Assembly: GCF_021391395.1 (NCBI RefSeq)
Contig: NZ_CP090059.1
Span: forward strand, 124,001 to 188,000
From: Sphingomonas cannabina
GTDB taxonomy: Bacteria > Pseudomonadota > Alphaproteobacteria > Sphingomonadales > Sphingomonadaceae
Length of the DNA stretch: 64,000 nt
Reading direction: 5' to 3'
Every line of letters begins with the position of its first letter. Position 1 is the stretch's first letter. Shown here piece after piece: positions 2,503 through 64,000 of this stretch. The notes under the pieces are model-generated. The model was not told the origin of the DNA. It made no database searches and was given only the letters and a program-made list of their open reading frames with translations. A program made the translations under genes and the position numbers.

Positions 2503-2523
2503 GCTCGGCGCTCGCCGGAGCCT

Positions 2524-7618: not shown

Positions 7619-7628
7619 TCTCTCTTCC

Positions 7629-8639: not shown

Positions 8640-8658
8640 CGCCTCTCCGTCTCCGCTA

Positions 8659-8672
8659 TTTCACATATGAAA
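8659..8672. promoter_or_regulatory. Palindrome upstream of the dehydrogenase operon
   Basis: TTTCA-CATA-TGAAA, an inverted repeat with 5-base arms and a 4-base spacer. It lies about 20 bases upstream of the dehydrogenase start on the minus strand. It is a candidate operator for the IclR regulator encoded in the same operon; that link is an inference. Confidence 0.35.
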
Positions 8673-8760
8673 GCGTCTTTAGCCTATAGCAGCCGTGCCG
8701 CCGCGCAAGCGAAATCGCGACGCGCCGATTTGACGTGAGGCGCGGGCGTGGCCGCCCGAC

Positions 8761-9291: not shown

Positions 9292-9310
9292 ATCGCCGCC
9301 TCTCGCCCAA

Positions 9311-9736
9311 TCAGTCCGCGGCCGCAACCCGGTCTGCGCAGGCCTGGTCCTGCCAGATCACTTCCGACACGGAGACGTTGTAGAGGCCGCGCTGGCGCGT
9401 GAAGCGGATCTCCATCCGGCAACGCACCCGCTCCGTGCTCCCCGGCGCGGTGGGGAAGAACAGCACATAGTTCCATCGCCGGGTGATGCCCTCGTCGAAG
9501 TGGGGCGTGCCGATCAGCCGGTAGACGGTGAACTTGTCGACGCCCGGCGTGATCATCCGGACCGCGGCGGGATCGACGACCACGCCCAGCTTCTTGTGCT
9601 CGAGCGGCGTCGGGTGGAACGCGCTGGGATCGACCCTGCCGACATAAGCCGAGGTGGTGCCGGCCTTCTCCCCGGCGATGGCCGGCGAGAGACCGAGGGT
9701 GGCCAGAAGCGGAAGGGCGAGGAGCTTGAGGGTCAT
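9311..9736 (-). CDS. SmpA/OmlA (BamE-like) domain periplasmic protein
   Basis: A 141-aa exported protein starting MTLKLLALPLLATLGLSPAIA. The mature part contains FTVYRLIGTPHFDEG and RRWNYVLFF, the conserved helix-turn and W-x-Y strand of the SmpA/OmlA (BamE) fold. It ends with RVRCRMEIRFTRQRG. BamE is a lipoprotein of the outer-membrane protein assembly machine, but this protein has no lipobox cysteine after its signal peptide, so it should be soluble in the periplasm. It starts 35 bases downstream of the adhesin stop and ends 20 bases before the OmpH-like gene. It may therefore be an adhesin-specific assembly factor. Confidence 0.65.
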   Translation of the reverse strand: MTLKLLALPLLATLGLSPAIAGEKAGTTSAYVGRVDPSAFHPTPLEHKKLGVVVDPAAVRMITPGVDKFTVYRLIGTPHFDEGITRRWNYVLFFPTAPGSTERVRCRMEIRFTRQRGLYNVSVSEVIWQDQACADRVAAAD

Positions 9737-9770
9737 TGTGTCCTCCTTGAGATGATGGGGTTCACGAGGA

Positions 9771-17894: not shown

Positions 17895-18064
17895 GCCACT
17901 TCCCCTTGTTGAACTGGCCACGGCACCTCGGCCGATGGCACGGAGCGAACAGACACAGTTTCCCCGCCGCCCCGAGGTGCGAGGACGCTTCCACGAAATT
18001 CAGAAATTCAGTTCAGTCCGATCGGGAGCGGCGCGACGAGCCTCAGCTCATCCCGCCCCCCCAT

Positions 18065-18676
18065 TCATCCGAAGTCTGCCCCTCGCGCGACGGTCACCAC
18101 CACGCAGGCGCCGCCGCTGGAGACCAGCATCGCCTGCCCCTGGTTGCCGCCGAGGTTGTAGAGCGGCACGCCGGACAGCGATCCCGCCGCGGTGCTGCCC
18201 GCTGGCAGCAGAGCGACGACGTCCCTGCACGCGCGCTGGAACGGCGCGACGCGGACCAGCTGGCCCTCGCACTTCCCGCCGACCGGTGCCGCCATGACGA
18301 TGCCGGCCGCCTGGGCGCTATAGCCGGGCGTGTTGTAGGTCATGCCGACCACGCCCTGTACGCCATGGCCATCCGGCGCACTGCCTTCGGTCTGTGCCTG
18401 GACGGTGTAGGCGGCGCCGTGGGAGACGGTCTGGCCCATGGCGGCGAAGAGATTGGCGCACTTGCGCACGCCCAGCCGCCCCGCCTGCTCTTGAAAGACG
18501 TTGACGTTGCCCGCGGGAGCCTTGGCCGCGGAGGGCGGGCGGGTCTCGGCCGATGCGCCGGCGGCGAGGGATATGGCGAGCACGGCGGCAACCAGGCGCC
18601 GGGCCCGCGGGCGAGAGACGTCCACGCGTTCTTCTTGATGCGATGAAGTGCAGACCTTGGAAGATCGTTCGGTCAT
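18065..18676 (-). CDS. Secreted protein of unknown function upstream of the adhesin
   Basis: I do not recognise this family. The 203-aa product has a hydrophobic export signal (RRLVAAVLAISLAAGASA) preceded by about 25 polar residues, so the true start may be GTG at 18625. The mature part has VRKCANLFAAMGQ, QRACRDVVALLPAGS and GGACVVVTVARG. Four cysteines suggest disulfides in an exported, compact domain. It precedes the trimeric adhesin by 170 bases on the same strand. A role as an accessory to the adhesin or a co-regulated envelope protein is inferred from position only. Confidence 0.6.
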   Translation of the reverse strand: MTERSSKVCTSSHQEERVDVSRPRARRLVAAVLAISLAAGASAETRPPSAAKAPAGNVNVFQEQAGRLGVRKCANLFAAMGQTVSHGAAYTVQAQTEGSAPDGHGVQGVVGMTYNTPGYSAQAAGIVMAAPVGGKCEGQLVRVAPFQRACRDVVALLPAGSTAAGSLSGVPLYNLGGNQGQAMLVSSGGACVVVTVARGADFG

Positions 18677-49240: not shown

Positions 49241-49354
49241 GTCTCTATGTCCTGCAGGTGCCCGATTTTCGGAAACGGGAACAAGGGCCGGAAATGCCGG
49301 ACGGACGACAGCCGTCATCCGCCCGGTCGGACCTGGTGGTATGGCTACGCCTCC

Positions 49355-49558
49355 CTATGCCACTTCAATAGCGCGCGCGGGATAGCCGTCCTCGGCGAGC
49401 GCGACTTCGATAGCTTGCGCGCTAGCCACGGTATCGACCGTGACCTTCTTGTCCGCGATACTCACCTCGACCTTCGCATTGGCGTCGATCGCGGTGATCG
49501 CTTGCGCGATGTGCTTGATGCATGAACCGCAGCTCATGTTTTCGACGTGGAATTGCAT
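49355..49558 (-). CDS. copZ: CopZ-like copper chaperone (HMA domain)
   Basis: A 67-aa heavy-metal-associated domain. MQFHVENMSCGSCIKHI carries the M-x-C-x2-C copper site, followed by the usual beta-alpha-beta order and TVDTVASAQAIEVALAEDGYPA. The start at 49558 gives the standard length; 49591 would add 11 residues. It is the first gene after a CueR-type promoter on the minus strand and lies 114 bases before copA, so copZAB likely form one copper-induced operon. Confidence 0.85.
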   Translation of the reverse strand: MQFHVENMSCGSCIKHIAQAITAIDANAKVEVSIADKKVTVDTVASAQAIEVALAEDGYPARAIEVA

Positions 49559-49591
49559 GGGAAATCTCCATTGTTCCTGACAACGGATCAC

Positions 49592-49622
49592 AAGCTAATC
49601 TTTCCCATCGTTGGAGGGTCAA
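49592..49622 (-). promoter_or_regulatory. CueR-type promoter of the copZAB operon
   Basis: On the minus strand: -35 TTGACC (49622-49617), 19 bases including the dyad CCTCCAACGATGGGA, then -10 TAGCTT (49597-49592). The over-long 19-base spacer with a central dyad is the hallmark of MerR/CueR-controlled promoters. Confidence 0.7.
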
Positions 49623-49727
49623 GGCCGTTTTTCGCGGTCGCTATCGGAAAGGAGATCACGGCCCTACCGTTGAGCCATGTGCTTGCGAGGGCGGCTTGCT
49701 CTCATCAGGTCAGGATATATTTTGCCC

Positions 49728-49758
49728 TTGACCTTCCCATCATTGGAACCTGCATCTT
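49728..49758 (+). promoter_or_regulatory. CueR-type promoter of the copper ATPase-cueR operon
   Basis: -35 TTGACC (49728-49733), a 19-base spacer containing TTCCCATCATTGGAA, and -10 CATCTT (49753-49758). It starts 69 bases before the ATPase gene. Confidence 0.7.
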
Positions 49759-49796
49759 GCGACAAATTCCAATCGTGAAGTGTGGAGTATCGAGCC

Positions 49797-52316
49797 ATGA
49801 TAGCCGCAGAAACCCTGAGAGATTCGGACGAATCCATCGATTCGGCGATCAGCTTGCCGATTGAGGGCATGACCTGCGCGTCCTGTGTGGCCCGCATCGA
49901 ACGGTCGCTGAGCAAGGTCGAGGGCGTACAGTCCGTCAGCGTCAATCTGGCGACCGAACGCGCCGACATTCGAGCAAACGCCGACATTCGAGCAAACGCC
50001 GCCGTCGACCGAAAGGCGCTGGTGCGGGCCGTCGAGGCCGCCGGCTACAGCGTGCCATCTGTCGCCGGCATCGAACTGGCGGTGGAGGGAATGACCTGCG
50101 CATCCTGCGTCGGTCGCGTGGAGCGGGCGCTCAAAGCTGTCCCCGGCGTCACCGAGGCGATAGTCAACCTAGCGACCGAACGCGCGAGCGTGCGCGGCGC
50201 GGCCGATGTTGAGGCGCTCATCGCAGCGATCGCGGGCGCGGGCTATACAGCGCGCCCAATTGAGGCCAGCGTTTCTGGCGACGAGGAAGCGGCCGAGCGG
50301 AAGGACGCCGAGCGCCGGGCGCTGAAGCGCGATCTCACCCTTGCGACCGTACTGGCGCTGCCGGTGTTCCTGCTCGAAATGGGCAGCCACGTCATTCCCG
50401 GCGTCCATGGCTTGATCGACCGCACGATCGGCATGCAGGCAAGCTGGTATCTCCAGTTCGTCCTGACGACGCTGGTGCTCGCCTTCCCCGGCATCCGTTT
50501 CTACAAGGCGGGCCTGCCCGCGCTGGCGCGGCTGGCGCCGGACATGAACTCGCTGGTTGCCGTCGGCACGCTGGCCGCCTACGGCTATTCGCTGGTCGCG
50601 ACTTTCGCGCCCGGTCTGCTGCCCGCCGGGACGGTCAACGTCTATTATGAAGCGGCGGCGGTCATCGTTGCGCTGATCCTGTTGGGCCGTTACCTCGAAG
50701 CCCGTGCAAAGGGCCGCACCTCCGAAGCGATCAAGCGGCTGGTGGGATTGCAGGCCAAGACCGCCCGCGTGCGCCGCGACAGCGCGGTGTTCGAGGTTTC
50801 CATTAGCGAGGTCATCACCGGCGACATTATCGAAGTGCGTCCCGGCGAGCGCATCCCCGTCGATGGCGAAGTGACCGAGGGCGAGAGCTATGTCGACGAG
50901 TCGATGATCACCGGCGAACCCATCCCGGTCGCCAAGGCTGAGGGCGCCACGCTGGTCGGCGGCACCGTCAATCAGCAGGGCGCGCTGGCGTTCCGCGCCA
51001 CCGCCGTTGGCGGCGCGACGATGCTGGCGCAGATCATCCGCATGGTCGAGCAGGCGCAGGGATCGAAGCTGCCGATTCAGGCGCTGGTCGACAAGGTGAC
51101 GATGTGGTTCGTCCCCGCCGTGTTCGGTGTGGCGGCGCTGACTTTCGCAGCCTGGCTGTGGTTCGGCCCGTCGCCCGCACTGACCTTTGCACTGGTGAAT
51201 GCGGTCGCCGTGCTCATCATCGCCTGCCCCTGCGCTATGGGGCTGGCGACGCCGACCGCCATCATGGTCGGCACCGGGCGCGGAGCGGAACTGGGTATCT
51301 TGTTCCGCAAGGGCGAGGCGCTGCAACTGCTGAAGGACGCCAGGGTTGTCGCGGTCGACAAGACCGGCACGCTGACCGAAGGTCGTCCCGCGCTCACCGA
51401 CCTGCAAGTGACGGACGGCTTCGACCGGGCGGCGGTGCTGGGTCTGGTCGCCGCTGTCGAGGACAAGTCGGAGCATCCGATCGCCCGCGCAATCGTCGAC
51501 GCGGCCAAGGCGGAAGGTATTGCGCTGCCCGCGATTACCGACTTCGACTCTATCACCGGCTTCGGTGTCAAGGCGGTGGCGGGTGGCGAGCTGGTCCAGA
51601 TCGGTGCCGATCGCTACATGCGCGAGCTTGGGCTGGACGTGGCCGCCTTTGCGGAGACAGCACAGCGGTTGGGGCAGGAAGGCAAGTCGCCGCTCTATGC
51701 CGCCATTGGCGGGCGGCTTGCCGCGATCATCGCGGTGGCCGATCCGATCAAGGCGACCACGCCGGCAGCCATCGCGGCGCTGCACGCGCTCGGCCTCAAG
51801 GTTGCGATGCTGACCGGCGACAACCGCATGACGGCCGAGGCTATCGCCCGCCAGCTCGGTATCGACGAAGTGGTCGCCGAAGTCCTGCCCGAAGGGAAGG
51901 TGGAGGCGATAGCCCGGCTCAAGGCCGAGCATGGCCGCGTCGCCTTCGTCGGGGATGGCATCAACGATGCGCCCGCGCTGGCGGCTGCCGATATCGGCCT
52001 AGCGGTCGGCACCGGCACGGATATCGCGATCGAGGCGGCCGATGTCGTGCTGATGTCGGGCCATCTGAACGGTGTGGCGACGGCCATCGCCCTGTCGCGC
52101 GCGACGATTGGCAATATCCGCCAGAACCTGTTCTGGGCGTTCGCCTACAACACGGCGCTGATCCCGGTCGCGGCAGGCGTGCTCTATCCGAGCCTGGGCA
52201 TCCTGTTCTCGCCGGTGTTCGCGGCGGGTGCTATGGCGATGTCGAGCATCTTCGTCTTGGGTAATTCGTTGCGCCTGCGCGGTTTTCAGCCACGCGAGAC
52301 AGGAGGAACGGCATGA
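49797..52316 (+). CDS. copA: Copper-exporting P1B-type ATPase
   Basis: An 839-aa inner-membrane Cu(I) pump. Two N-terminal HMA domains each carry GMTCASC. Eight helices are expected, with the transmembrane site [15 protein letters not shown] (CPC near residue 479). The actuator loop is DESMITGEP. The phosphorylation site is DKTGTLTEG (Asp near residue 521), followed by the SEHPIARAI motif. The hinge is [20 protein letters not shown] 49797 was chosen over GTG 49782 for its GGAG box. It lies behind a CueR promoter and overlaps cueR by ATGA. HMA1 contains a duplicated six-residue unit (see repeat entry). Confidence 0.94.
49962..49997 (+). repeat. 18-bp tandem duplication inside the first HMA domain
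   Basis: Two perfect adjacent copies (49962-49979 and 49980-49997) encode [12 protein letters not shown]. This adds six residues to the first metal-binding domain while keeping the frame. It is probably a recent slippage product. Confidence 0.9.
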
Positions 52317-52756
52317 ACATCGGACAAGCCTCCAAGGCGTCGGGCGTCTCCGCCAAGATGATCCGCTATTACGAGCAGACCGGCCTCATTCCGAAAGCCG
52401 ATCGCAAGGACTCCGGCTATCGCGATTACTCGCCATCGGATGTTCATATGCTGCGGTTCATCCGGCGGGCGCGTGATCTCGGTTTCTCGGTCGCGGAGAT
52501 CAACGATCTTCTGAGCCTCTGGCGGGACAAGGCCCGCCAGAGCGCCGATGTGAAGCGGATCGCGCAGGCCCATATCGCCCAGCTTCAGGAGCGGATCGAA
52601 AATCTGAACCAGATGGCCGCGACGCTCGGAACGCTGGTGGATTGCTGCGCGGGCGATGATCGGCCTGACTGCCCGATCCTTGCCGATCTGGAGGAACCCG
52701 GCGCCGCGCCAGCATCCGTGCCGGCGGCAACGGGCCGCCTTCGGCACCGACCGTAA
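52313..52756 (+). CDS. cueR: CueR-like MerR-family copper-sensing activator
   Basis: A 147-aa regulator. DNA-binding region: [29 protein letters not shown]. The dimerisation coiled coil is around residues 75-108. The metal loop [14 protein letters not shown] has Cys112 and Cys120 with eight-residue spacing, the Cu(I) site of CueR, plus an extra Cys111. It overlaps the ATPase by ATGA. It should activate the two divergent promoters at 49.6-49.76 kb and possibly the similar sites near 59.05 and 59.37 kb. The C-terminal tail is about 15 residues longer than in E. coli CueR. Confidence 0.9.
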
Positions 52757-52950
52757 ACGAATCAGATATTCGACACCGCTCCACGATGCGGCGCCGCTCC
52801 CGCTAAGCCGTGGTCAACAAGTCCGACAACAAGCGGACGCGTTGATCCCGAGTGGTGCGGTCGCCTTCAGAAAAACGCTGACGCCATAACCTATGGCGAC
52901 CACCCCGCCGATTTGCAGTAGGTCTCGTCGTGAAGGGCGGCGCTTCTCCG

Positions 52951-54354
52951 TCATGTGTCGTCCGGGGTCGCGCCTCCCAGCGCCCGGATCAAGGCGATTG
53001 CCGTTCGGGCGCGATCATATTCGACCGTGATGCTGGCGCGTTGCGCGGCGAGCGCGGCGGTTTGGGCCGTCGTCACCTCCAGATAGTCGGCCGCGCCGTC
53101 GCGATAGCGATCAAGCGCCAGGCTCTCAGCCCGCGCCGCCGCTTGGGCGGCTATGCGCTGCTCGCGATCCTGACCCGTCAAGGCATCCATGCGAGACAGG
53201 GCATCCTCCACCTCCCGGAACGCATCCAGCACGGTCTGGCGGTAGCCCGCGGCGAGTTCTTCATAGTCCGTCCGGCTGATGGCCAGCCGCGCTCGCCGTC
53301 CGCCACCGTCGAACAGATTGAAGATCGTGGTGATCGGCCCGAGCGCCCAGAAACCAGTATCCGCGCTGACGATCGGCGCCTCGACCGCCTGATACCCCGC
53401 GCCGAGCCCGAGGCTGATGCGCGGATAGAAGGCGGCCCGCGCGACGCCGATCCGCGCATTGGCGGCGACCAGGCGGCGCTGCGCCTCGGCGATGTCGGGA
53501 CGGCGCTGAAGAAGTTCGGAGGGCAGGGACGGCGGCAGGTCAGGCAGCGCAAGGCTTCGTTGCGCGGGATCGATGGCGAAAACAGAGGCGCTCTCGCCAA
53601 CCAGCGCCGCGATCCGGTTCTCGATCCCCGCGCGCTGCGCCCGTAGCGCCTCCAGACGGGCGCGGGCATCGGCGAGCTGGGCCGTCGATCGGCTACGGTC
53701 CACGCCAGAGGCAATGCCGCCTTCGTGGCGGGTGCGGATCAAATCATCGGCGCGCGCATAGGCGGCCACGGTCCTGGTCAGCAGGACCTGCTCGGCATCG
53801 ACGGCGCGAAGTTGGACATAGAGATCGGCGACCGAAGCCTGAAGGCTGAGCCGCGCCGAGCGCAAGGCGGCCTCCTGCGCTTCGGCATCCGCCGTAGCGG
53901 CGCGCACGCTGTTGCGGACCCGGCCCCAAAGGTCCAACTCATAATCGAGACCAACACCGAAGAGGATCTGGTTCGCGATTACGGGCTCGCCAGCTCCGAT
54001 CGATCGTCCGGCTGAAAGCCGCTCGCGCGAAGCCCCGCCGGTCAGATCGACATTCGGCAACTGGTTGGAGCGGTCGAGCCGTGCCGCCGCCAACGCCCGG
54101 TCGTAACGGGCAAGCGCGGCCGCGAGCGTCGGGGTCCGCTCGTCCAGCCGCGCCATCAGCTCGTCGAGCACCGGGTCCGCGAATCCGCGCCACCACTCGC
54201 CACGGTCTAGATGATCGCCGGGCGCGGCCGTCGTCCATCCTTCCACATGGCGGAAGCTTGCCGGGGTCTCGATTGCCGGCGTTTGCATCGGCGGCAGGGT
54301 GGCGCAGCCGCCGAGGCCGATCGCGGCGACGAATGCTATCCTAGCGCTGCGCAT
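52951..54354 (-). CDS. RND efflux outer-membrane factor (NodT/OprM family)
   Basis: A 467-aa TolC-like lipoprotein with lipobox LGGC near residue 17. The repeated outer-membrane-efflux domain is visible: GEWWRGFADPVLDELMARL, then LGVGLDYELDLWGRVRNSV in the first half, and PSELLQRRPDIAEAQRRLVAANARIGVARAAFYP in the second. It is the third gene of the adaptor-pump-channel operon and overlaps the adaptor gene by 14 bases. It forms the exit duct for the pump at 55497. Confidence 0.9.
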   Translation of the reverse strand: MRSARIAFVAAIGLGGCATLPPMQTPAIETPASFRHVEGWTTAAPGDHLDRGEWWRGFADPVLDELMARLDERTPTLAAALARYDRALAAARLDRSNQLPNVDLTGGASRERLSAGRSIGAGEPVIANQILFGVGLDYELDLWGRVRNSVRAATADAEAQEAALRSARLSLQASVADLYVQLRAVDAEQVLLTRTVAAYARADDLIRTRHEGGIASGVDRSRSTAQLADARARLEALRAQRAGIENRIAALVGESASVFAIDPAQRSLALPDLPPSLPSELLQRRPDIAEAQRRLVAANARIGVARAAFYPRISLGLGAGYQAVEAPIVSADTGFWALGPITTIFNLFDGGGRRARLAISRTDYEELAAGYRQTVLDAFREVEDALSRMDALTGQDREQRIAAQAAARAESLALDRYRDGAADYLEVTTAQTAALAAQRASITVEYDRARTAIALIRALGGATPDDT

Positions 54355-55504
54355 TCGGAGCCGCCGGTTGCCGTGCGGGAACTACCCGGACCTTGTCGCC
54401 GGTGGCCAGCGCGTCGGGAGGGGTCTGAACGATGCGGTCGGTTGGACGTAGCCCCGAGATAATCTCGATGGTCGCGCCCTGGTCGCGACCCACCGCAACC
54501 TCCCGAAGCGCGACCTGACCCTGGCCATCGACCACGGCGACCCGCGCGCCGTCGGAACCGAGGATCAGGGCGCTCGCCGGCACCTGGACCGTTTCGGCGC
54601 CGCCAGGCACGGACACCCGCACCTCCGCGTAGCTGCCGGGTCTCAGGCGTCGAGCGCCGTTATCGACCAGAAATTCCACCAGCATTGCGCCGGATTGGCG
54701 GTCCACCGCCTCGGAGAGACGGGACAGTGTGGCCTCGAACACCTCGCCCGGTCTGTCAGGCACGGTGAACATCGCTTGCGTGCCGCGCACCAGCCTTCCC
54801 GAAAAAGCTTGCGGTACGCGCACATAGAGGCGCAGGCGGCTGACGTCGGCAACGGTGAACAAGGGTTCCACCCCCGGCGCGCCCGTCTGGACCAAGGCGC
54901 CGAGCTGGGCCGAGCGGCTGGTGACGACGCCATCGAACGGCGCCGTCAGCCGCGTAAATCCGGTCAGCGCCCTCAGCCGGCCGACGTCCGCCTGAGCGGC
55001 CCGTGCGCGCGCATCGGCAGCGGCAAACTGCCCCTGCCGCTCATCGGCTTCCTGCCGGGACACGGCGTCCTTTTCGAGCAGATTGTTCCAGCGCGCCGCC
55101 GTGGTTTCGGCCAGCCCGCGATCAGCGGCCGCGGTCTGATAGGCCGCCTGGGCCTGCGCGAGCTGCTGGTCGATCTCGGGCGCATCGAGGATGGCGAGCG
55201 TTTGCCCGCGCCGCACCCGGTCCCCGATGTCCGCGCGCCATTCGCGCACATAGCCGCTCACCCGCGCGTTGATCGCGGCGCGATTATAGGGATCGAGACT
55301 GCCCGGCAGCACGATCTCGCCTCCCTCGGACACGCGGGGCTGAACCAGGCTGACGGTGGGCAGCGCGTTCTCGGCCGCGATGGCTGCCTGTTCGCTTTCG
55401 GCCATGCCGCGCGAAACGAGGCCGCCTCCGACCAGTGCGGCAATCACGAGACCGGCCGCGCCGAGATAAAGGCCGGCGCGCTTCTTTGGGGTTGGATCAG
55501 ACAT
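54341..55504 (-). CDS. RND efflux periplasmic adaptor (membrane fusion protein)
   Basis: A 387-aa adaptor with an N-terminal membrane anchor (LYLGAAGLVIAALVGGGLV). It has a lipoyl-like half motif (VSGYVREWRADIGDRVRRGQTLAIL), an alpha-hairpin (QLAQAQAAYQTAAADRGLAETTAARWN) and the barrel segment RLTAPFDGVVTSRSAQLGALV. ATG 55504 overlaps the RND stop; a TTG at 55516 is less likely. It bridges the pump at 55497 and the channel at 52951. Confidence 0.9.
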   Translation of the reverse strand: MSDPTPKKRAGLYLGAAGLVIAALVGGGLVSRGMAESEQAAIAAENALPTVSLVQPRVSEGGEIVLPGSLDPYNRAAINARVSGYVREWRADIGDRVRRGQTLAILDAPEIDQQLAQAQAAYQTAAADRGLAETTAARWNNLLEKDAVSRQEADERQGQFAAADARARAAQADVGRLRALTGFTRLTAPFDGVVTSRSAQLGALVQTGAPGVEPLFTVADVSRLRLYVRVPQAFSGRLVRGTQAMFTVPDRPGEVFEATLSRLSEAVDRQSGAMLVEFLVDNGARRLRPGSYAEVRVSVPGGAETVQVPASALILGSDGARVAVVDGQGQVALREVAVGRDQGATIEIISGLRPTDRIVQTPPDALATGDKVRVVPARQPAAPNAQR

Positions 55505-58500
55505 GCTGGAGTTCAAGCTCCCTTGCGGGTGAGGAAGGCGCGCCCTTGCGATGGGCGATGCTGAACAGCGCCGGCACGAGCAGCAGTGTCGCCACGGTTG
55601 CGAAGATCAAGCCGCCGATCACCGCGCGGCCGAGCGGAGCGTTCTGCTCGGCGCCCTCGCCGATACCGAGCGCGATGGGGGTCATGCCGATGATGATCGC
55701 GAGCGCGGTCATCAGCACGGGGCGGAAACGGACCACCGCCGCCTCGATCGCGGCGCGGGTGGCGTCGCCGGTCTCGGCTAGGCGTTCGCGTGCGAAGCTG
55801 ACCACCAGGATGGAGTTGGCGGTGGCGACGCCCATGCACATGATCGCGCCGGTGAGCGCGGGCACGGAGATGGTCGTGCCGGTCACGAACAGCATCCAGA
55901 CGATGCCGGCGAAGGCGGCCGGCAGCGCGCCGATGATGACCAGCGGGTCGATCCAGCTCTGGAAGGTCACGACGATCACGAGGTAGATGAGGATAATCGC
56001 GCCGATCAGCCCGAAAGCGAGACCGGAGAAGGCGTGGTTCATCGTCTCATATTGTCCCGCCAGCGTGACGGTTACGCCGGCCGGGCGCTCGGCATCCATC
56101 TCGGCAATGATGCGATGAATGTCGCCGGCCACGGCGCCCAGGTCGCGAGCCTGCGGCGTGGCATAGATGTTGATGACCGGCTGGATGTCTGCTCGGCTCG
56201 CTACGTTGATGGTCGTATTGCGAGTCACGGCGCCAAGACCGCCCAGCGTCTGGGCCTCCCCGGCGCCCGTCGCCGAAACCGGCAGCGCTTCCAGCGCAGC
56301 GATCGTGTCGACCTCCAGTTCGGGGACTTGCGCCACGACAGGATAGGACACCCCGTTTTCGGGATTGAGCCAGTAAACCGGCGCAGACTGCTGCGTGCCG
56401 GCTAGGGCGGTCGCGACGCTGGTGGTTACGTCACGCTGGTTGAGCCCGTATTGCGCGATCCGCGAGCGATCGATGTCGATGTTGAGCTGCGGCGCGCGCG
56501 AGGATTGCTGGAGTCGGGCGTCGGCGAGGCCGGGCACGGTCCGAACGCGTTTGAGGATCGCTTGCGCATAAGCTTCGTTCGCCGCGAGATTCCGGCCGCG
56601 CACCTGGATATCGATCGGCGCTGGCGAGCCGAAGTTCAGGATTTGGCTGGTGATGTCGGCAGGCAGGAAGGAGAAATCAACGCCCGGAAAGCTCACGGGC
56701 AGCTCGCGCCGCAAAGTGGCGACATGCGTGTCCGTCGCGGTTCGGTTCCGCCCGAGCGAGATGAGGATATCGCCCTCGTTCAGTCCCACCGTCCCCGTAT
56801 TGTTGTAGATGACGTTGAGCAGCGCGGAGGACATTCCGACATTGGCGACGACCGATTCAACCTGCTCGGCGGGGATCAATTCGCGCACCCGCGTCTGCAC
56901 CCGCGAGATCAGCGCCGTGCTGTCCTCGATGCGCGTGCCTGCCGGCGCGCGCACATGCAGGGTGATTTGCCCAGCATCCACAGTGGGAAAGAAGTCGCGG
57001 CCAAGTGTGGGAATGAGCAGCAGCGACGCCACCATCGCGCCGAGGAACGCCGGGATGAAGATGCGCCGTGCGGACATCACGCGGGAAAGCACCCGCCCGA
57101 AGCGGTCCTTCTGCCTGTCGAACCCGGTCGAAAAGCGATGCTGGAACCGGACGAGTGGATTGCGCGAGCGGGCGCGCTCGGCCTCTTCGCCCTCCCGATG
57201 CGGGCGTAGCAGATACATCGCCATCGTCGGGATGAGCGTGCGCGACAGGATGAACGAGGCGATCATCGAGAAGATCACCGCCAGTGCCAGCGGCACGAAC
57301 AGATAGCCTGCGACGCCCGGCAGGAAGAACATCGGCACGAAGACGATGCAGATGCACGTCACGATCACGAAGGCGGGCGTCACGATCTGCGCCGCGCCGT
57401 CCATGATCGAGCGTAGAACCGGCTTCCCTTTCTCAAGGTGCCAGTTGATGTTCTCGATCGTGACCATCGCGTCGTCGACCAATATGCCGATGGCCAGAGC
57501 CAAGCCGCTCAGCGTCATGATGTTGATCGTCTGGCCGGTCGCGCTCAGCGCCAACAACGCGGCGAGGATCGCCAAGGGTATCGTGGTCACGATGATGATC
57601 GTCGATCGCCACGATCCCAGAAACAGCAGGATCATCAGCGAGGTCAGCACGGCGGCCAACACACCCTCATAGGCCACGGTGGAGACGGCCGCCTTCACCA
57701 GCACCGACTGGTCGCCGATAAGCTGGACGCGCAGCGTTTCCGGGAGGCCCTCGGTGATCTGTGGGATACGCTCGCGAACCGTATTGACGATATCGATGGT
57801 TGAGGCCGCACCGCTCTTGAGCACGGTCATCAGGACTGACCGCTGGCCTTCGACTTGGACGATGTTCATTTGCGGCGGCGCGCCGTCGCGGACTTGGGCG
57901 ATGTCGCGCATGGTGATCGTCGCGCCGTCGACCACGCGAACTGGCAGATTGTTCAACTGCTCGACCGAGCCCGGCGCATTGTTGAGCCTGACGGTGTATT
58001 GCAGGCCGCCGACCTTGGCGAAGCCCGCCGGGATGATTTGGGTTTGCGCGGCAATCGCCGCCGCGACGTCGCCGGCGGACAGGCCGCGAGCGCGCAGCGC
58101 CTCAGGGTCGATGTCGATCTGTATCTGACGCTGCTTGCCGCCGAATGGGAAGGGCATGGCGACGCCCGGCACGGTGATGAGCTGCGGGCGGATTTGATTG
58201 ACGCCGAGATCGTAGAGCTGCTGTTCGCTCAGCCCTTCGCCGGAGAGGGCGAGCTGGACGATCGGCACGGTCGAGGCGTCATAGTTGACGATGAACGGCG
58301 GAGAGATGCCCGGCGGAAGCTGACGCAAAATGGCCTGCGAGATCGACGTGACCTGCGCGGTCGCGGTGCGAATGTCCGCGCCTGGCTGGAAGTAAATCCG
58401 CACGACGCCAACGCCGTTCATCGACTGGCTCTCGATCCGGTCGATGTCGTTGACGGTCGTGGTCAGCACGCGTTCGAACGGATTGATGATCCGTCCGGCC

Positions 58501-58679
58501 ATGTCCTCGGGCGACAGCCCATTATAGGTCCAGGCGGTCGCGATCACCGGCACGCCGATGCGCGGGAAGATGTCGACCGGCATCCTCAGAACGGACAGGA
58601 TGCCGAGGCCAAAGATCAGCACGGCCATCACGATGAAGGTCAGCGGTCGCGTTAGCGCGACCCGCACGAGCGCCATCAT
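55497..58679 (-). CDS. RND efflux pump, inner-membrane transporter
   Basis: A 1060-aa HAE/HME-type RND transporter with 12 expected helices. Motifs: MVALVRVA-type start with LTFIVMAVLIFGLGILSVLRMPVD, the proton-relay GLALAIGILVDDAMVTIENI in helix 4, and the second-half IMCMGVATANSILVVSFARERL. The two large periplasmic loops are present. Sequence character is closer to multidrug/CzcA-like AcrB homologues without a clear metal-site DE motif, so the cargo is uncertain. It overlaps the adaptor gene and is preceded by a His-rich 48-aa frame whose stop overlaps the start. A shared ArsR-type operator suggests zinc control. Confidence 0.92.
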   Translation of the reverse strand: MMALVRVALTRPLTFIVMAVLIFGLGILSVLRMPVDIFPRIGVPVIATAWTYNGLSPEDMAGRIINPFERVLTTTVNDIDRIESQSMNGVGVVRIYFQPGADIRTATAQVTSISQAILRQLPPGISPPFIVNYDASTVPIVQLALSGEGLSEQQLYDLGVNQIRPQLITVPGVAMPFPFGGKQRQIQIDIDPEALRARGLSAGDVAAAIAAQTQIIPAGFAKVGGLQYTVRLNNAPGSVEQLNNLPVRVVDGATITMRDIAQVRDGAPPQMNIVQVEGQRSVLMTVLKSGAASTIDIVNTVRERIPQITEGLPETLRVQLIGDQSVLVKAAVSTVAYEGVLAAVLTSLMILLFLGSWRSTIIIVTTIPLAILAALLALSATGQTINIMTLSGLALAIGILVDDAMVTIENINWHLEKGKPVLRSIMDGAAQIVTPAFVIVTCICIVFVPMFFLPGVAGYLFVPLALAVIFSMIASFILSRTLIPTMAMYLLRPHREGEEAERARSRNPLVRFQHRFSTGFDRQKDRFGRVLSRVMSARRIFIPAFLGAMVASLLLIPTLGRDFFPTVDAGQITLHVRAPAGTRIEDSTALISRVQTRVRELIPAEQVESVVANVGMSSALLNVIYNNTGTVGLNEGDILISLGRNRTATDTHVATLRRELPVSFPGVDFSFLPADITSQILNFGSPAPIDIQVRGRNLAANEAYAQAILKRVRTVPGLADARLQQSSRAPQLNIDIDRSRIAQYGLNQRDVTTSVATALAGTQQSAPVYWLNPENGVSYPVVAQVPELEVDTIAALEALPVSATGAGEAQTLGGLGAVTRNTTINVASRADIQPVINIYATPQARDLGAVAGDIHRIIAEMDAERPAGVTVTLAGQYETMNHAFSGLAFGLIGAIILIYLVIVVTFQSWIDPLVIIGALPAAFAGIVWMLFVTGTTISVPALTGAIMCMGVATANSILVVSFARERLAETGDATRAAIEAAVVRFRPVLMTALAIIIGMTPIALGIGEGAEQNAPLGRAVIGGLIFATVATLLLVPALFSIAHRKGAPSSPARELELQHV

Positions 58680-58822
58680 CGTGGCTGGTTCCGAAACATA
58701 GGTGACTTGCTAGGCATCGCACGTCCTCCCGCGAGATCGCGAAAATGGGCATGCTCCCGTCTTGCGTGATCGTGATCGTGGTGGCTGTGGGAATGGGGCA
58801 TGTCGATCTCAAACGGAGCCAT
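58676..58822 (-). CDS. His-rich 48-aa peptide directly upstream of the RND pump
   Basis: ATG at 58822 opens a 48-codon frame reading MAPFEIDMPHSHSHHDHDHA and then RREHAHFRDLAGG. It ends with TGA at 58676 that overlaps the two ATGs of the RND gene (ATGATG). Seven of the twelve residues 9-20 region are His or Asp, as in metal-binding tails. It begins eight bases after a putative zinc-repressor operator. It could be a metal-binding leader or chaperone coupled to pump translation, or the N-terminal stub of a lost CDF exporter, whose N-terminus at 44430 looks similar. No family assigned. Confidence 0.5.
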   Translation of the reverse strand: MAPFEIDMPHSHSHHDHDHARREHAHFRDLAGGRAMPSKSPMFRNQPR

Positions 58823-58830
58823 AAGATGTG

Positions 58831-58844
58831 CACATGAATATGTG
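58831..58844. promoter_or_regulatory. Putative zinc-repressor operator upstream of the RND operon
   Basis: CACAT-GAAT-ATGTG; on the minus strand CACATATTCATGTG. This is nearly the same as the site upstream of the CDF gene (44387-44400), including the flanking ATGAA. Probable binding site of the SmtB-like regulator at 45955. Confidence 0.55.
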
Positions 58845-59028
58845 TTCATTTGTTTGATGTCAACTCGATGCAGTCAAGCACCACCATGAGCTGGCCGTGG
58901 CGATGACGAGCAAATGGCAGCGTCATTTTTGCGCTCGGAGAAGCCGATGACGGCGTCGGCGGTTGAGGGACGGCTTCAGGAATCCGGGAATTCCTGACTT
59001 TCCGCATTGATTCGTTTGTTGCCGCAGA

Positions 59029-59059
59029 CCGATGCTTCTTCCAACGTTTGGAAGGTCAA
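59029..59059 (-). promoter_or_regulatory. CueR-like promoter element facing the RND operon
   Basis: On the minus strand: TTGACC (59059-59054), then 19 bases including the perfect dyad CTTCCAA-ACG-TTGGAAG (59054-59038), then CATCGG. The dyad is excellent; the -10 is weak. It points toward the RND genes about 370 bases away. Confidence 0.45.
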
Positions 59060-59102
59060 GGGATGAATCACTTCGGGCTCACGTCGGACCTACGCCGCCG
59101 GT

Positions 59103-59280
59103 ACGTTGCTCGATGACTATGTGCAGTCGGGCACCATGGCCGCCGACCAAGCGGCGCTTCTAGCCGAAGTCGCCAAGGGTCCCGACCGCGTCGTCATCAT
59201 TGAGGACACGCGCGAGCTTCAATGCGCCGCGCCTAATCTCGTCGCGATGCGCACCAAGGATGGCATTGCGACGCTCGACG
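59103..59280 (+). pseudogene. trbB: trbB (conjugation ATPase) fragment with internal deletion
   Basis: The frame reads TLLDDYVQSGTMAADQAALLAEVAK and PDRVVIIEDTRELQCAAPNL, then RTKDGIATL, all typical TrbB segments. In TrbB the first and second parts are separated by the Walker A region (about 25 residues, GGTSTGKTT-type), which is missing here. Both the N-terminal two thirds and the C-terminal third are also absent. The remnant lies on the opposite strand to the intact trb genes at 62-64 kb, so it comes from another element or an inverted copy. Confidence 0.65.
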
Positions 59281-59334
59281 CGCCATGCCGGCGTGCCCCT
59301 TCGACCTATCGCCTATCCTTTCATATTTATCTAT

Positions 59335-59346
59335 ATTCATATGAAT
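59335..59346. promoter_or_regulatory. 12-base palindrome upstream of the chimeric efflux gene
   Basis: ATTCATATGAAT, a perfect palindrome in an AT-rich stretch, similar in composition to the zinc-repressor sites at 44387 and 58831. It may be another binding site. Confidence 0.35.
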
Positions 59347-59364
59347 GATTGTTGAAAATAATCC

Positions 59365-59395
59365 TTGACCTTGCCAACGCTGGAAGCCGCAAAGC
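59365..59395 (+). promoter_or_regulatory. CueR/MerR-like promoter of the chimeric efflux gene
   Basis: TTGACC (59365-59370), a 19-base spacer containing TTGCCAACGCTGGAA, then CAAAGC. The -35 and spacer dyad match the CueR class; the -10 is poor. It lies about 70 bases before the gene at 59462. Confidence 0.45.
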
Positions 59396-59461
59396 GAACA
59401 GGAATCGATCAGACGCCGCGGAACGGATGAACAAGGCGCGGCACAGTTGAAAGGCAATATC

Positions 59462-60628
59462 ATGCCGACAAAAAGCGCACTTCTCCTGGCTTCCATAGCC
59501 TTGGCTATTGGCGGCCTTACGTCAGCTTGTAGCAAATCGGGCGGCGATCAGGGCGCACAAGCGGCGGCAGCGCCGCAAGTGCCAGTAGCGCAAGTTGTCG
59601 TGCGCGAGCTTGCCCCCTCGGCCGAGTTCAACGGTTCGCTATCGGCGCCCCAGAGCGTCGAGTTGCGGCCCCGCGTCAGCGGCGCAATCGTCTCCGTCCA
59701 TGTCCCCGAAGGCGTGCTCGTCAGGAAGGGGCAGCTTCTGTTCCGCATTGATCCGCGACCATTCCAGGTCGCGCTCGATCAGGCGCAGGCGCAGCTTCGT
59801 CAGGCGCAAGCCTCCGCAACGCTCGCCGAAAGCAATTTCACCCGCTCGGAACAACTCGTCGCGACCGGCGCAATCTCGCGCAAGACTTATGACGACGCGC
59901 TGGCGCAGCGGAACGCCGCACGCGCACAGGTGCAGGCCGGTAGCGCGGCCGTAGCCGCCGCACGGCTCGACCTTTCCTTTACGCAGGTCACGGCGCCGGT
60001 CGGCGGCCGGGTCGATCGCGTGCCCTCGGACCTTCTGGCGCGCCGACCCGACATCCGCGCGGTCGAACATACGCTGCGCGCCGCCAACGCGAATATCGGC
60101 GCTGCCCGCTCAGCGTTCTTCCCGACGATCAGTCTGACCGGCTCGGCGGGAACGGCGAGCGCGAGCCTCGACGATCTGTTCTCATCGGGGTCGGGCGCAT
60201 GGAGCTTCATGCCGCGCATCACCCTGCCGCTTCCAATCTTCGGCGGCAGCGCGCTGAGAGCCAACCTCGATCGCGCGGACGTGCAGAAACGGATCGAAAT
60301 CGCCAACTATGAGAAGGCGATCCAATCCGCCTTCCGCGACGTGGCTGACGGGCTCGCCGGCAAAGGAACCTTGGACGCCCAAATCCGATCGGAAACGCAG
60401 CGGGTCGATGCCAGCCGCAATGCCTACAGGCTCGCGGAACAGCGGCTCAACTCAGGCGAGGATGACAACCTCGCCCTGCTCGACGCGCAGCGCACGCTTT
60501 ACGGGTCACAGCAAGCCTTGGTCCGCTCCAAGCTGGTGCGGCTCAGTAATCTCATCAATCTCTACAAGGCGCTGGGTGGCGGCTGGACGGAGTTCACGAC
60601 ACCGCCTGATGATCCGTTAGCCCGGTGA
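59462..60628 (+). CDS. Chimera: RND adaptor N-half fused to outer-membrane factor C-half
   Basis: A 388-aa lipoprotein (lipobox TSAC near residue 23) made of two protein families. Residues 1 to about 186 are an RND membrane fusion protein: VSGAIVSVHVPEGVLVRKGQLLFRIDP, the alpha-hairpin and LSFTQVTAPVGGRVDR. From residue 187 the frame continues as the second half of a NodT/OprM channel: VPSDLLARRPDIRAVEHTLRAANANIGAARSAFFPTIS to the end. The adaptor's second half, the whole RND pump and the channel's first half are missing between them. ATG 59462 has AAAGG seven bases upstream. It is very unlikely to work as a pump component. Confidence 0.8.
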   Translation: MPTKSALLLASIALAIGGLTSACSKSGGDQGAQAAAAPQVPVAQVVVRELAPSAEFNGSLSAPQSVELRPRVSGAIVSVHVPEGVLVRKGQLLFRIDPRPFQVALDQAQAQLRQAQASATLAESNFTRSEQLVATGAISRKTYDDALAQRNAARAQVQAGSAAVAAARLDLSFTQVTAPVGGRVDRVPSDLLARRPDIRAVEHTLRAANANIGAARSAFFPTISLTGSAGTASASLDDLFSSGSGAWSFMPRITLPLPIFGGSALRANLDRADVQKRIEIANYEKAIQSAFRDVADGLAGKGTLDAQIRSETQRVDASRNAYRLAEQRLNSGEDDNLALLDAQRTLYGSQQALVRSKLVRLSNLINLYKALGGGWTEFTTPPDDPLAR

Positions 60629-61566
60629 TTGAGCTGCGCCAGCTCCGCTACCTGATTGCGGCGGCCGAGGCCGGTAGCTTCAGTCGCGCGGCGCGCAGCA
60701 TAAATATCAAGCAAGCAACGCTCAGCCGACACGTCCTCGAAATCGAGAAGCGGCTAGGCATGGCGCTGTTCGACCGCAAGACCCGCGGTGCCACTCTGAC
60801 TCCGAATGGCAGAACCTATCTGCGAACGGCACAGCGCATCGTGAAGGAGTTCGAGGAACTGAACAACTGGGTCCGCGCCACGAACAACGGCCACGTCGGC
60901 AAGCTGGCCGTAGGCTTCTATACGTCCTTCTCCGCCGGCAACTTGCGGGCAACGCTCAGCGAGTTCGGCGAACGCCACCCCGAGGTCAAAGTATCCGGCT
61001 TTGAACGCGATCGGGATATGCTGTTGGCCGGGATCGAGAATGGCCTGCTCGATATCGCGATCATGATTGGGGAGGCCTCCTATCGGGGTCTGATGAGCCG
61101 TTCTTTCTGGAGTGAGCGCATATTTGTAGCAATGCCGGCAGGCCATCCACTCACCCAATGCGAACGCATCCATTGGCCCGACCTGACCGGCGAACACTTT
61201 TTGCTGACCGAACGAGATCCCGGCCCAGAGACCCGAAACATCCTCATGGGCAAACTTGGGGTCCCCGGTTGCATGCCAGAGATCGACATGCAGGATATCG
61301 GACGCGAGACAATGTTGAGCGCCATTGCGCTCGGTGGGCGTCTCTCGATTGTCGCCGAATCCGCCTTGGGTATCCAAGTGCCAGGCGTAACGTTCAGCGA
61401 AATCCACGACAGTCATGGACATATGCGGATCGGCTTCTCGGGCTATTGGCGTGAAGACAATGACAACCCCGTCTTGCTGCGCTTCCTTGATCTCGTGGCC
61501 GGTCGCTATTCGCTGCCGCCCATTCTGATGCCGCAGCCATCACATCACCAACCGGAAAAGAAATAG
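60625..61566 (+). CDS. LysR-family transcriptional regulator
   Basis: A 313-aa regulator. The N-terminal helix-turn-helix is LRYLIAAAEAGSFSRAARSINIKQATLSRHVLEIEKRLG, followed by the LysR substrate domain (LAVGFYTSFSAGNLRATLSEF). GTG 60625 overlaps the stop of the chimeric gene (GTGA). LysR genes of this type commonly sit between the cargo and the trb operon of ICEs, so it may belong to the conjugation module rather than to efflux. Inducer unknown. Confidence 0.87.
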   Translation: MIELRQLRYLIAAAEAGSFSRAARSINIKQATLSRHVLEIEKRLGMALFDRKTRGATLTPNGRTYLRTAQRIVKEFEELNNWVRATNNGHVGKLAVGFYTSFSAGNLRATLSEFGERHPEVKVSGFERDRDMLLAGIENGLLDIAIMIGEASYRGLMSRSFWSERIFVAMPAGHPLTQCERIHWPDLTGEHFLLTERDPGPETRNILMGKLGVPGCMPEIDMQDIGRETMLSAIALGGRLSIVAESALGIQVPGVTFSEIHDSHGHMRIGFSGYWREDNDNPVLLRFLDLVAGRYSLPPILMPQPSHHQPEKK

Positions 61567-61568
61567 CC

Positions 61569-61877
61569 ATGACACGAAGCAAGACACTCTTCATCGTGCT
61601 GGTCGCGCTGGTCATCGGATTCGGCGTGGGCTTCGTGCTGCGCCCGGTGATCATGCCCGTCGAGCGTGCGCCGGCCCTCGCGAGTCCGGCCCCCGCCGCA
61701 CCGGAGCCGGCCGAACCGCGCGGGACGCAGTATTTCGCGGCGCATCTCGATGAAGCACGGGAGATCGTGGGGCAATGCGCGGAAGGCTCGGTGCGGGGCA
61801 GCGAGTGCGCCAATGCCGAGCAGGCCGTGATCGAGGCGGAAGGCCGCGACCGCTTCAAGAAGTTCATGGGCAACTGA
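61569..61877 (+). CDS. TrbK-alt-like small exported/membrane protein
   Basis: A 102-aa protein with one N-terminal hydrophobic helix (TLFIVLVALVIGFGVGFVL), a Pro/Ala linker and a mature domain with two cysteines (IVGQCAEGSVRGSECANAEQAV). This layout fits the putative entry-exclusion TrbK-alt proteins found beside trb operons. It starts three bases after the lysR stop and is convergent with DUF2274. Entry exclusion would stop redundant transfer into cells already carrying the element; this is inferred from family and place. Confidence 0.6.
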   Translation: MTRSKTLFIVLVALVIGFGVGFVLRPVIMPVERAPALASPAPAAPEPAEPRGTQYFAAHLDEAREIVGQCAEGSVRGSECANAEQAVIEAEGRDRFKKFMGN

Positions 61878-61894
61878 CGGCAGGCGGCGCGCTC

Positions 61895-62116
61895 TCACTT
61901 CCCCTGCGCGCGGTGCCGGCGAAAGGCGCGGTCGGTTTCCATGAACCGGGCGAGCATCGGCGCGACCAGCTTGTCGGGCGGGACCGGCGCTCCCCCGGTC
62001 TCGGCTGCGAGCGCGGCGGCATAGGCGACGAGATCGCGATGCACGGCGGCGGGCAGCTCCACGGAGAGCTTGACCGGCCGATCGTCGGCCAGCGGCCCCA
62101 ACTTCAATTTCGTCAT
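61895..62116 (-). CDS. DUF2274 family protein of the trb operon
   Basis: A 73-aa protein with KLKLGPLADDRPVKLSVELPAAVHRDLVAYAAALA, matching the DUF2274 family found at the end of trb operons in ICEs. The short beta strand followed by two helices resembles a ribbon-helix-helix DNA-binding fold. It overlaps trbI by four bases and is the last gene of the operon, so it may be an autoregulator. Function not established. Confidence 0.8.
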   Translation of the reverse strand: MTKLKLGPLADDRPVKLSVELPAAVHRDLVAYAAALAAETGGAPVPPDKLVAPMLARFMETDRAFRRHRAQGK

Positions 62117-63333
62117 CGTGTCGCTCCGATCGGTTCAAGCACCAGGTCGCGCGTGATGACCACGCGCAACGGATGCCCCGGCCGGATGGTGAGCGTCGGC
62201 TGCACATTGAGCTGCCGACGCACGATCTGCTGGCCGGTCTGGTTGATGGTGTCCTGCGAGCCGCGACGCAGTGCGCGAGTAAGTTCGTCCTCGCTATCCG
62301 CGCCCAATTCGGCGCCGACGCCGAGCAGTGTCGAAACGGCGGCGGCTTTCAGCAGATTGCCCCAATGCTGGTTTACGCGATCCTGTAGGCCAGCATATCC
62401 GGCCGCATCAGCGCCGGGCTGGCGCTCGAGAACGATCGAGCGGCCGTCCGGCAATATCAGCCGATCCCATGCCAGCAGCACGCGCGCCTGCCCGGCGGCG
62501 ATCTCGCTGTCATATTCGCCGATCAGCCGCGTGCCCTGCGGGATGAGCAGGATGCGGCCCGTAGGGCTGTCATAGACGTTTGCCGTTACCTGGGCGGTGA
62601 TCTGGCCGGGAAGGTCCGAACGGATGCCGGTGATGAGCGCGGCAGGGATGATGCTGCCGGCCTGCACGATGTTGGGCGAGGCCGGCGCCACGAGGCGTTC
62701 GACGCTGACCGTCCGCTGATTAGACGCCTGCGCCAAGAAGGCTCGCTTGGCGGCCTGGTCGCCCTGCGCCGTCTCGGCAGGTTGCGGTGAGGCAGGAGCA
62801 CCAGGCGCTGCCGTCGCGAGGTTCGGCAAAGACGGCATCGCAGCGGCCCCGGCGCTGCTGCCACCCAAGAACACGCCGCTCATGCGGGCGGCGTCGCGCT
62901 CCTGCTGCGCGCGCTGGCGGGCGGCTTCCTCAGCCTGCGCGCGCGGATCGGGCTGGGCGCCGACCGGCGGGACCTGGACATTCTCCCCGCGCTGCTGGGC
63001 CGAGACGATCGGGCCGCCGAGGTCGCCGGGAAGCGGCGGGCCGAGTTTCGGCGCTTGGCTATAGTCGCGCGGTCCCGACGTGATGGTCTCGGACGTGGCG
63101 CGGCTGTCGGTGTTGTAAAGCTCCTTGGCCTCCTTCTCGCCGGCCGGCTTGAGCGCATAGATCAGTGAGCCGCCGATCCCGAGGCCGGCGACGACGCCGA
63201 GGGCGGCCAGCGCCTTGCGCGACAGGCGCATGACGCGCGGCGGGTTGCCGCGAAGCTGGAAGGCTTGCGGATCGGGGCGCGGCGCTTGCGGTGCGGCCGC
63301 CTCGGGCGGGGAATTGTCGGCGGGATCGGTCAC
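62113..63333 (-). CDS. trbI: TrbI, conjugal type IV secretion core protein (VirB10-like)
   Basis: A 406-aa protein that spans the envelope as part of the mating channel. Cytoplasmic N-terminus rich in Pro/Ala, a single helix (ALAALGVVAGLGIGGSLIYAL near residues 42-62), a Gln/Arg-rich linker, then the VirB10 beta-barrel domain with IVQAGSIIPAALITGI, GRILLIPQGTRLIGEYDS and LPDGRSIVLERQPGADAAGYAG. C-terminus QPTLTIRPGHPLRVVITRDL. It overlaps trbG by four bases. Confidence 0.92.
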   Translation of the reverse strand: MTDPADNSPPEAAAPQAPRPDPQAFQLRGNPPRVMRLSRKALAALGVVAGLGIGGSLIYALKPAGEKEAKELYNTDSRATSETITSGPRDYSQAPKLGPPLPGDLGGPIVSAQQRGENVQVPPVGAQPDPRAQAEEAARQRAQQERDAARMSGVFLGGSSAGAAAMPSLPNLATAAPGAPASPQPAETAQGDQAAKRAFLAQASNQRTVSVERLVAPASPNIVQAGSIIPAALITGIRSDLPGQITAQVTANVYDSPTGRILLIPQGTRLIGEYDSEIAAGQARVLLAWDRLILPDGRSIVLERQPGADAAGYAGLQDRVNQHWGNLLKAAAVSTLLGVGAELGADSEDELTRALRRGSQDTINQTGQQIVRRQLNVQPTLTIRPGHPLRVVITRDLVLEPIGATR

Positions 63334-64000
63334 GGCCGCCCCCTGCGCCCATTGTCGCGCACGATGCGGACGCGCTGCTCGCCGCGCCGGTCGCCCAGGC
63401 GCAGCTCGGCGGCGGCGAACAGCCGGTCCACCACCATGTAGCGGCCCTGCACGCGGTAATTAACTAACTCGGCATCGCCGGCCGCGCCGGTCACGAACAG
63501 CGGCGGCATCTCGCCCTGCGAGATCCCGGCCGGAAACTCGATGAACACTTGGGCTGCATCATCGAAGGCGCGAACCGGCTTCCACGGCACGCGGTCGCCC
63601 TCGATCCGGTAGCGGAAGTTGAGCGCCGCGAGGTCGAGGCCGGTCGCGACGGGGGCAGCGGCGGCATTGGCGCCGCGCAGCGCGATGAGCTGGTCCTGCG
63701 GATAGGTCCATGAGACCGAGGCCATGTATGTCGATGCGGTCGCGCGCAATTCGATGTGATAGGTGCGCCGGTCGGTATTGATGACGAGGTTCGTGGAAAT
63801 GTCGGGGCGTGTTGGCTTCGCCAGGATATGCACGCGCGCCGTCGCGCCGCTGCCGCTCACCGTGTCGCCGATGATCCAGCGCACGGTGTCGCCGGCCGCG
63901 ACCGGCCCGGGCCCCACGAGCTGCTCGCCTTCCTGAAGCGCGATGTCCGTCACCTGGCCGGGCGCGGCATAGACCTGATAGAGCGCGCCGTCCGTCCAGG
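63330..64000 (-). CDS. trbG: TrbG, conjugal transfer protein (VirB9-like), 5' end outside the window
   Basis: The last 223 codons of trbG; the frame stays open to the window edge (…YQVYAAPGQVTDIALQEGE). VirB9 domain segments include VRWIIGDTVSGSGAT, VHILAKPTRPDISTNLVI and DRRTYHIELRATAST. The C-terminal part runs YRVQGRYMVVDRLFAAAELRLG. It binds the TrbI/VirB10 and lipoprotein subunits at the outer membrane. The rest of the trb operon should follow beyond 64000 in the same orientation. Confidence 0.9.
   Translation of the reverse strand, partial: WTDGALYQVYAAPGQVTDIALQEGEQLVGPGPVAAGDTVRWIIGDTVSGSGATARVHILAKPTRPDISTNLVINTDRRTYHIELRATASTYMASVSWTYPQDQLIALRGANAAAAPVATGLDLAALNFRYRIEGDRVPWKPVRAFDDAAQVFIEFPAGISQGEMPPLFVTGAAGDAELVNYRVQGRYMVVDRLFAAAELRLGDRRGEQRVRIVRDNGRRGRP

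Follow-up and report, generated by a model that had tools for sequence, protein, structure and literature searches.

Gene fusions left as scars of deletions, also termed chimeric pseudogenes, are a known kind of sequence. The fusion described here resembles them in that a colinear parent without the fusion exists, one deletion separates the two, the joined ends overlap briefly and near-identical copies show early damage. It differs from them in that its reading frame survived and a downstream gene still overlaps it. The second point of comparison is the RND efflux operon of the MexEF-OprN or OqxAB type. Both halves of the fusion derive from one such operon, which here is followed by a LysR gene, and relative to such operons the fusion has no pump, half an adaptor and half a channel. 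Passages of PMC4446572 describe the channels of the OprM family as trimeric and pseudo-six-fold symmetric, with two repeats in each chain, adaptors as thought to work in six copies, and an R-L-S motif at the tip of the adaptor hairpin, the conservation of which is not absolute. They also state that adaptor hairpins alone can bind the channel, and they mention fused dimeric adaptors (DSY0927), which are different from an adaptor-channel fusion. Among the titles and abstract openings listed from open-licence PMC full text, none reports an adaptor-channel fusion in nature.

Loss of the pump gene from a parental operon

We analyzed a 64,000-nucleotide stretch of the Sphingomonas cannabina genome, hereafter the window, the relevant features of which are collected in Table 1. 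A sequence-only reading had proposed that an RND adaptor and an outer-membrane channel are joined here in one frame upon deletion of the intervening pump gene, with a missing interval of about 4.5 kb. The unfused parent was sought in genome_contigs, which holds one genome each of 84,980 species, and the best 80 of at least 174 confirmed relatives were compared. First among the relatives listed were the loci of Sphingorhabdus sp. 109 (L026) and of Qipengyuania pacifica (L027). In L026, copA is followed by an adaptor of 399 aa, a pump of 1058 aa, a channel of 488 aa, LysR and a stretch that runs colinear with the conjugation genes of the window, and the nucleotide identity of L026 to the window is 85% on the adaptor side of the joint and 86% on the channel side. 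Specifically, window positions 49354-52805, 59275-60023 and 60018-64000 correspond to L026 positions 66-3512, 3578-4338 and 8999-12978, with two differences between these blocks: 6.5 kb of the window stand against about 65 bp of L026, and at the joint 4,666 bp of L026 have no equivalent. The Sphingopyxis MAG L028, which is more distantly related, has the same gene order and gives a missing interval of 4,672 bp.

The parental pump (L026:4970-8146) is whole as judged by Pfam (ACR_tran 2-1020 of 1021), and nothing within 59462-60628 corresponds to it, so that the pump gene of a tripartite system is absent from the fusion. Because the parental operon is colinear in L026/L027 and again in L028, and both ends are identifiable in an unfused parent, removal of the pump by deletion is shown directly: a single step took away the second half of the adaptor gene, all of the pump gene and the first half of the channel gene. 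Both the deletion and its approximate size had thus been read correctly from the window.

L026 and L027, which belong to different genera, are identical to each other over 18.6 kb (1-18606), a segment running from copA through the RND genes and LysR to the conjugation genes. This identity may reflect recent transfer or mixed-up records.

Among the NCBIfam models listed at E <= 1e-60, the parent adaptor best matches MexE and then OqxA, the pump RND_permease_1 and then OqxB, and the channel outer_NodT and then AdeK, with all three proteins falling under the MexE, OqxA, OqxB and AdeK cut-offs and passing only those of general subfamilies.

Table 1. Positions of features in the window and what each assignment draws on
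Feature	Position	Strand	Basis
copA-type heavy-metal P-type ATPase	49782..52316	+	colinear in L026, L028
pF007-identical segment	52372..59193	.	6,822 bp at 100.0% identity, P. aeruginosa plasmid
Second adaptor-pump-channel operon, between copA and fusion	52951..58679	-	full-length Pfam/NCBIfam matches
Conserved dyad like a CueR/MerR-type operator	59365..59386	+	kept in L026, L028
Fusion ORF, 388 aa	59462..60628	+	ORF list, profile scans, parent alignment
Adaptor front half	59462..60022	+	Pfam, NCBIfam, structure alignment
Channel back half, one complete OEP repeat	60020..60628	+	Pfam; OprM chain ~264 to 455
Joint, TGC common to both parental ends	60021..60023	+	alignment to L026
LysR-family regulator	60625..61566	+	ORF list, Pfam, L026 comparison
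TrbI	62113-63333	-	Pfam
CagX/TrbG-type protein	63330-63953	-	Pfam

The joint and the two halves of the fusion protein

The joint had been placed near position 60,020, and the alignment to L026 puts it there: the joint codon is a GTG at 60020-60022, the last two bases of which begin the shared TGC. The adaptor side follows L026 for 20 bases without mismatch, ending ...GATCGCGTGC, and the channel side for 16 matching bases, starting TGCCCTCGGACCTTCT. An overlap of at least 3 bp arises at 7.3% of 100,000 random breakpoint pairs between the parent's two genes, so the TGC only hints at a short-homology event and is weak evidence for one. The codons stay in frame across the joint, a 1-in-3 outcome that either fell out by chance or was favoured. 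The joint 23-mer has no exact match in the viral collection.

The ORF runs from an ATG at 59462 to a stop at 60626-60628. A mechanical frame from the TTG at 59447 would give 393 aa; the ATG at 59462 is the codon that aligns with the parental adaptor start. Profile scans divide the protein at about residue 187 into a MexE/OqxA-like RND adaptor followed by an OprM/NodT channel, which bears out the division into residues 1-186 and 187-388 that was first read from the sequence. The adaptor part, residues 1-187, is a front half, with residues 8-187 matching positions 8-185 of the 390-position MexE profile (E 5.9e-44) and residues 40-188 matching 1-149 of the 322-position RND_mfp profile (E 2.6e-41; score 141.7, above the cut-off of 94.9; both NCBIfam). 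Residues 187-388 are the second of the two OprM/NodT channel repeats, with residues 185-374 matching outer_NodT 273-460 of 460 (NCBIfam, E 2.4e-56; score 191.5, below the cut-off of 210.05) and residues 188-372 matching OEP 5-187 of 187 as a single repeat (Pfam, score 109.2, above the cut-off of 22).

Solved structures agree with this division. Residues 13-186 align with AcrA 14-186 of 397, and the back half aligns with OprM, confidently from about chain residue 264 to 455. The front half comprises what we take to be a lipoprotein-type signal, the first lipoyl half, a helical hairpin and the start of the second lipoyl half. The lipobox that had been noted is present as L-T-S-A-C and is the same in the parent; threonine at position -3 is not the textbook residue. 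The hairpin tip motif R-x3-L-x6-S is complete in the window (R128, L132, S139). A complete adaptor, with lipoyl, hairpin, beta-barrel and membrane-proximal parts, is not present: the matches end at RND_mfp 149 of 322 and MexE 185 of 390, and the HlyD_D23 and HlyD_3 (Pfam) matches of the parent adaptor are absent from the fusion. A NodT/OprM factor has two OEP repeats, as does the parent channel, and the fusion has one such stretch. This back half corresponds to L026 9001-9606, which codes for the C-terminal 202 residues of the 488-residue parent channel, and that region holds the better-matching one of its two OEP stretches (291-472).

Copies, age and possible fates of the hybrid

Three further database proteins, P0001, P0002 and P0007, have the same joint string as the window, and each sequence is different from the window's, with one or two differences within the aligned part. 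P0001 (388 aa) carries R128S, which replaces the nearly invariant Arg of the tip motif that docks on the channel. P0002 (387 aa) lacks one residue and has Q30L. P0007 (221 aa, aligned over residues 47-232) differs at the start codon and is then frameshifted in the channel half, leaving the frame open in three of the four distinct fusion sequences. The P0001 cluster stands for 46 member sequences, 388 aa being the length of P0001 itself. R128S and the frame loss would harm a working hybrid and would fit a relic, though they may be sequencing errors in short contigs. These copies also bear on the suspicion, raised in the sequence-only reading, that an assembly artefact produced the fusion. We hold such an artefact to be very improbable: the window's genome is a single contig of 4,386,171 bases (completeness 99.99), and the joint recurs in three proteins distinct from the window's that nonetheless may not be independent isolates. 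What speaks for it is the shortness of the contigs behind P0001 (3,351 bp) and P0002 (3,252 bp), P0007 having none listed.

In comparison with L026, dN is 0.049 and dS 0.425 in the adaptor half (dN/dS 0.12), and dN is 0.039 and dS 0.426 in the channel half (dN/dS 0.09). The neighbours give similar ratios, with dN 0.045, dS 0.489 and dN/dS 0.09 for copA, the L026 frame of which was taken from its first possible start and left untrimmed to the window's, and dN 0.090, dS 0.747 and dN/dS 0.12 for LysR. Polarizing private changes with L028 as third sequence, we counted the codons changed in the window alone: in the adaptor half 7 of these changes were replacing and 22 were silent (L026-only: 3 and 9), and in the channel half 3 were replacing and 22 silent (L026-only: 3 and 23). 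Private amino-acid changes, in these small numbers, are 10 in the window versus 5 in L026 for the adaptor half and 6 versus 4 for the channel half; with L028 as third sequence, replacing changes show no clear excess on the window side. This pattern suggests that the deletion may be recent or that the halves may still be constrained; that all four fusion sequences are nearly identical favours the former. Thus, with dN/dS of about 0.1 in both halves as in the neighbours and near-identical copies, the fusion looks young.

Protein searches gave no sign of a conserved family of full-length fusions in the matches listed. The window protein, P0035 and P0003 served as queries, 8,000 candidates were scored for each, and the 120 hits listed of 6,635, 7,484 and 7,777, respectively, contained as fusions the near-identical copies plus P0003 and P0035. 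P0003 is a 535-aa adaptor-channel fusion, its adaptor part 88-89% identical to named Acinetobacter adaptors and its channel part 99% identical to P0068 (a 257-member cluster), with the outer_NodT profile kept from position 150; its contig is at most 1,935 bp, and it is a fusion or a chimera. P0035 is a 434-aa adaptor-channel fusion that by eye retains about 40 aa of channel before the repeat. Both have joints and parents different from the window's and fall in clusters of 1 and 2 members, indicating separate deletions or chimeras. Recurrence is to be expected and need not mean selection, because one deletion in an adaptor-pump-channel operon suffices. The search with the window protein also listed P0031, a channel protein to which a precomputed annotation assigns an isochorismatase domain (PF00857) in addition to OEP; its contig is 1,779 bp long, and it may be a chimera.

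Other sphingomonad elements had been suggested as places where the same joint might recur, which did not hold: close DNA was confined to the window's own genome, both among 397 family genomes (1 with a match at E <= 1e-50) and among 396 order genomes (1 at E <= 1e-40). At the genus level 89 of 101 genomes gave some DNA match, the best beyond the own genome, among those listed, having E 2e-24 over 209 bases. The phylum protein search gave matches at E <= 1e-45 in 57 of 398 genomes, and among the matches listed only that in the own genome covered residues 1-388. The three next-widest matches, which begin at residues 74, 87 and 99, were considered as fusions and proved to be ordinary full-length channels with helices that align across the joint. 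As judged from the positions of their adaptor and channel matches, none of the best 80 of the at least 174 relatives in genome_contigs contains the fusion. In 73 of them the channel match is preceded by an adaptor match of its own (median gap 4,762), and seven (L046, L062, L076, L077, L082, L090, L093) have no adaptor match at threshold, with the channel match in L046, L082 and L090 too close to the contig start for an adaptor. L028 and L063 each gave one long match (residues 87-377) and were likewise rejected as fusions, both being ordinary channels. Among plasmids, the DNA query 58700-61600 matched one record with 17% covered, and the protein query matched 4,117 records, none covering 80%.

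Taken together, we consider it highly probable that the fusion is a scar left by deletion in an efflux operon that was redundant, and that it stayed in frame by chance or through the overlap with LysR. The relatives' island carries copA, adaptor, pump, channel, LysR and conjugation genes, and the window's copy has lost the pump interval, with the break presumably joined at the short matching TGC by slippage or end joining. The in-frame joint would be either the one-in-three chance or favoured since it lets ribosomes reach the overlapping LysR gene. The product, if made, would be a lipid-anchored hairpin bearing half a channel and would probably be degraded; it would be unable to act as an efflux system because the pump-docking parts and half of the channel are lost. 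Loss of the pump should be tolerable because eight RND pumps over the Pfam cut-off (of nine ACR_tran matches in the genome) are present, one of them in the adjoining operon. The parent with its exact boundaries, the neighbour-like dN/dS, the near-identical copies, the damaged variants and the LysR overlap argue for the scar, and a harmless relic is the best supported of the three fates that had been offered. Against it, the joint in three more proteins, together with the 46 sequences behind P0001, indicates that the fused copy persists or spreads. Low dN/dS is equally expected from constraint after fusion, the damaged variants could be sequencing errors, and the front half still scores over the RND_mfp cut-off. 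A functional hybrid is conceivable, though none of the findings speaks for one. The fusion is ordinary in kind and neat as an example: it is a clean case of an efflux operon on a mobile-looking island that lost its pump beside another pump operon and whose intact parent is known.

Compatible with the scar, as a sub-case with overlapping odds, is that in-frame translation was kept for the neighbour, with LysR rather than the hybrid under selection. The GTG start of LysR overlaps the fusion stop, as it does the channel stop in L026, so an in-frame deletion would spare translation into LysR where the other two frames might not. This overlap is probably the best reason besides chance for the open frame. 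LysR is itself open with low dN/dS against L026, which may however reflect selection before the deletion, and we rate this sub-case as possible but doubtful. A role of the hybrid itself as a dominant-negative or modulating binder seems improbable to us; its lipid-anchored hairpin, no longer tied to the pump-docking parts, would occupy channels that belong to other RND systems of the cell and so reduce or alter efflux. The hairpin and its tip motif are intact in the window, the genome's 27 OEP matches offer many possible partner channels, and a weak effect is conceivable because hairpins alone can bind the channel (passages of PMC4446572). On the other side, the tip Arg is a Ser in P0001, the product is putative, and the half channel at its C-terminus would likely misfold. 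More speculative still, one hairpin and exactly one channel repeat give a matched 1:1 stoichiometry, so a homohexamer, a six-fold conduit built from one kind of chain, could in principle form a passive lipid-anchored pore without a pump; we think this extremely unlikely. A stable hybrid would be an adaptor-channel chimera of natural origin in which exactly one channel repeat is kept, and it would help to address whether channels with two repeats arose from an ancestor that had one repeat and six-fold symmetry.

Putative regulatory and mobile-looking surroundings

An upstream MerR-like promoter had also been proposed, and it held in part. A dyad, TTGACCTTGCCAACGCTGGAAG, is conserved upstream of the corresponding operon in L026 and L028, and its shape and the adjacent copA point to a putative CueR/MerR-type operator. 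The promoter itself did not follow: no good -10 lies behind this dyad, and the sigma-70 scan gave nothing on the + strand. A second match with 3 mismatches (59038-59059, - strand) reads towards the opposite-strand pump operon; two matches occurred in 0 of 100 shuffles. In an Achromobacter locus (L029) the dyad pattern is on the strand reading towards a copA relative. The LysR gene behind the L028 channel has no DNA match to the window's LysR.

On the right, Pfam adds to TrbI and the CagX/TrbG-type protein a P-loop protein of the TraG type and a type IV coupling protein, and with these alongside the island looks conjugative. The second pump operon is absent from this place in L026 and L028. A query with 58680-59470 matched 3 of 296 genomes including the own, the other two over about 120 bases. 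The identity of the segment containing this operon to plasmid pF007 indicates that the RND operon appears to have been exchanged very recently between the island and a Pseudomonas plasmid. pF007 comes from a P. aeruginosa isolate of a cystic-fibrosis lung in Denmark, and a recombinase and a Tn3-family transposase adjoin the segment there.
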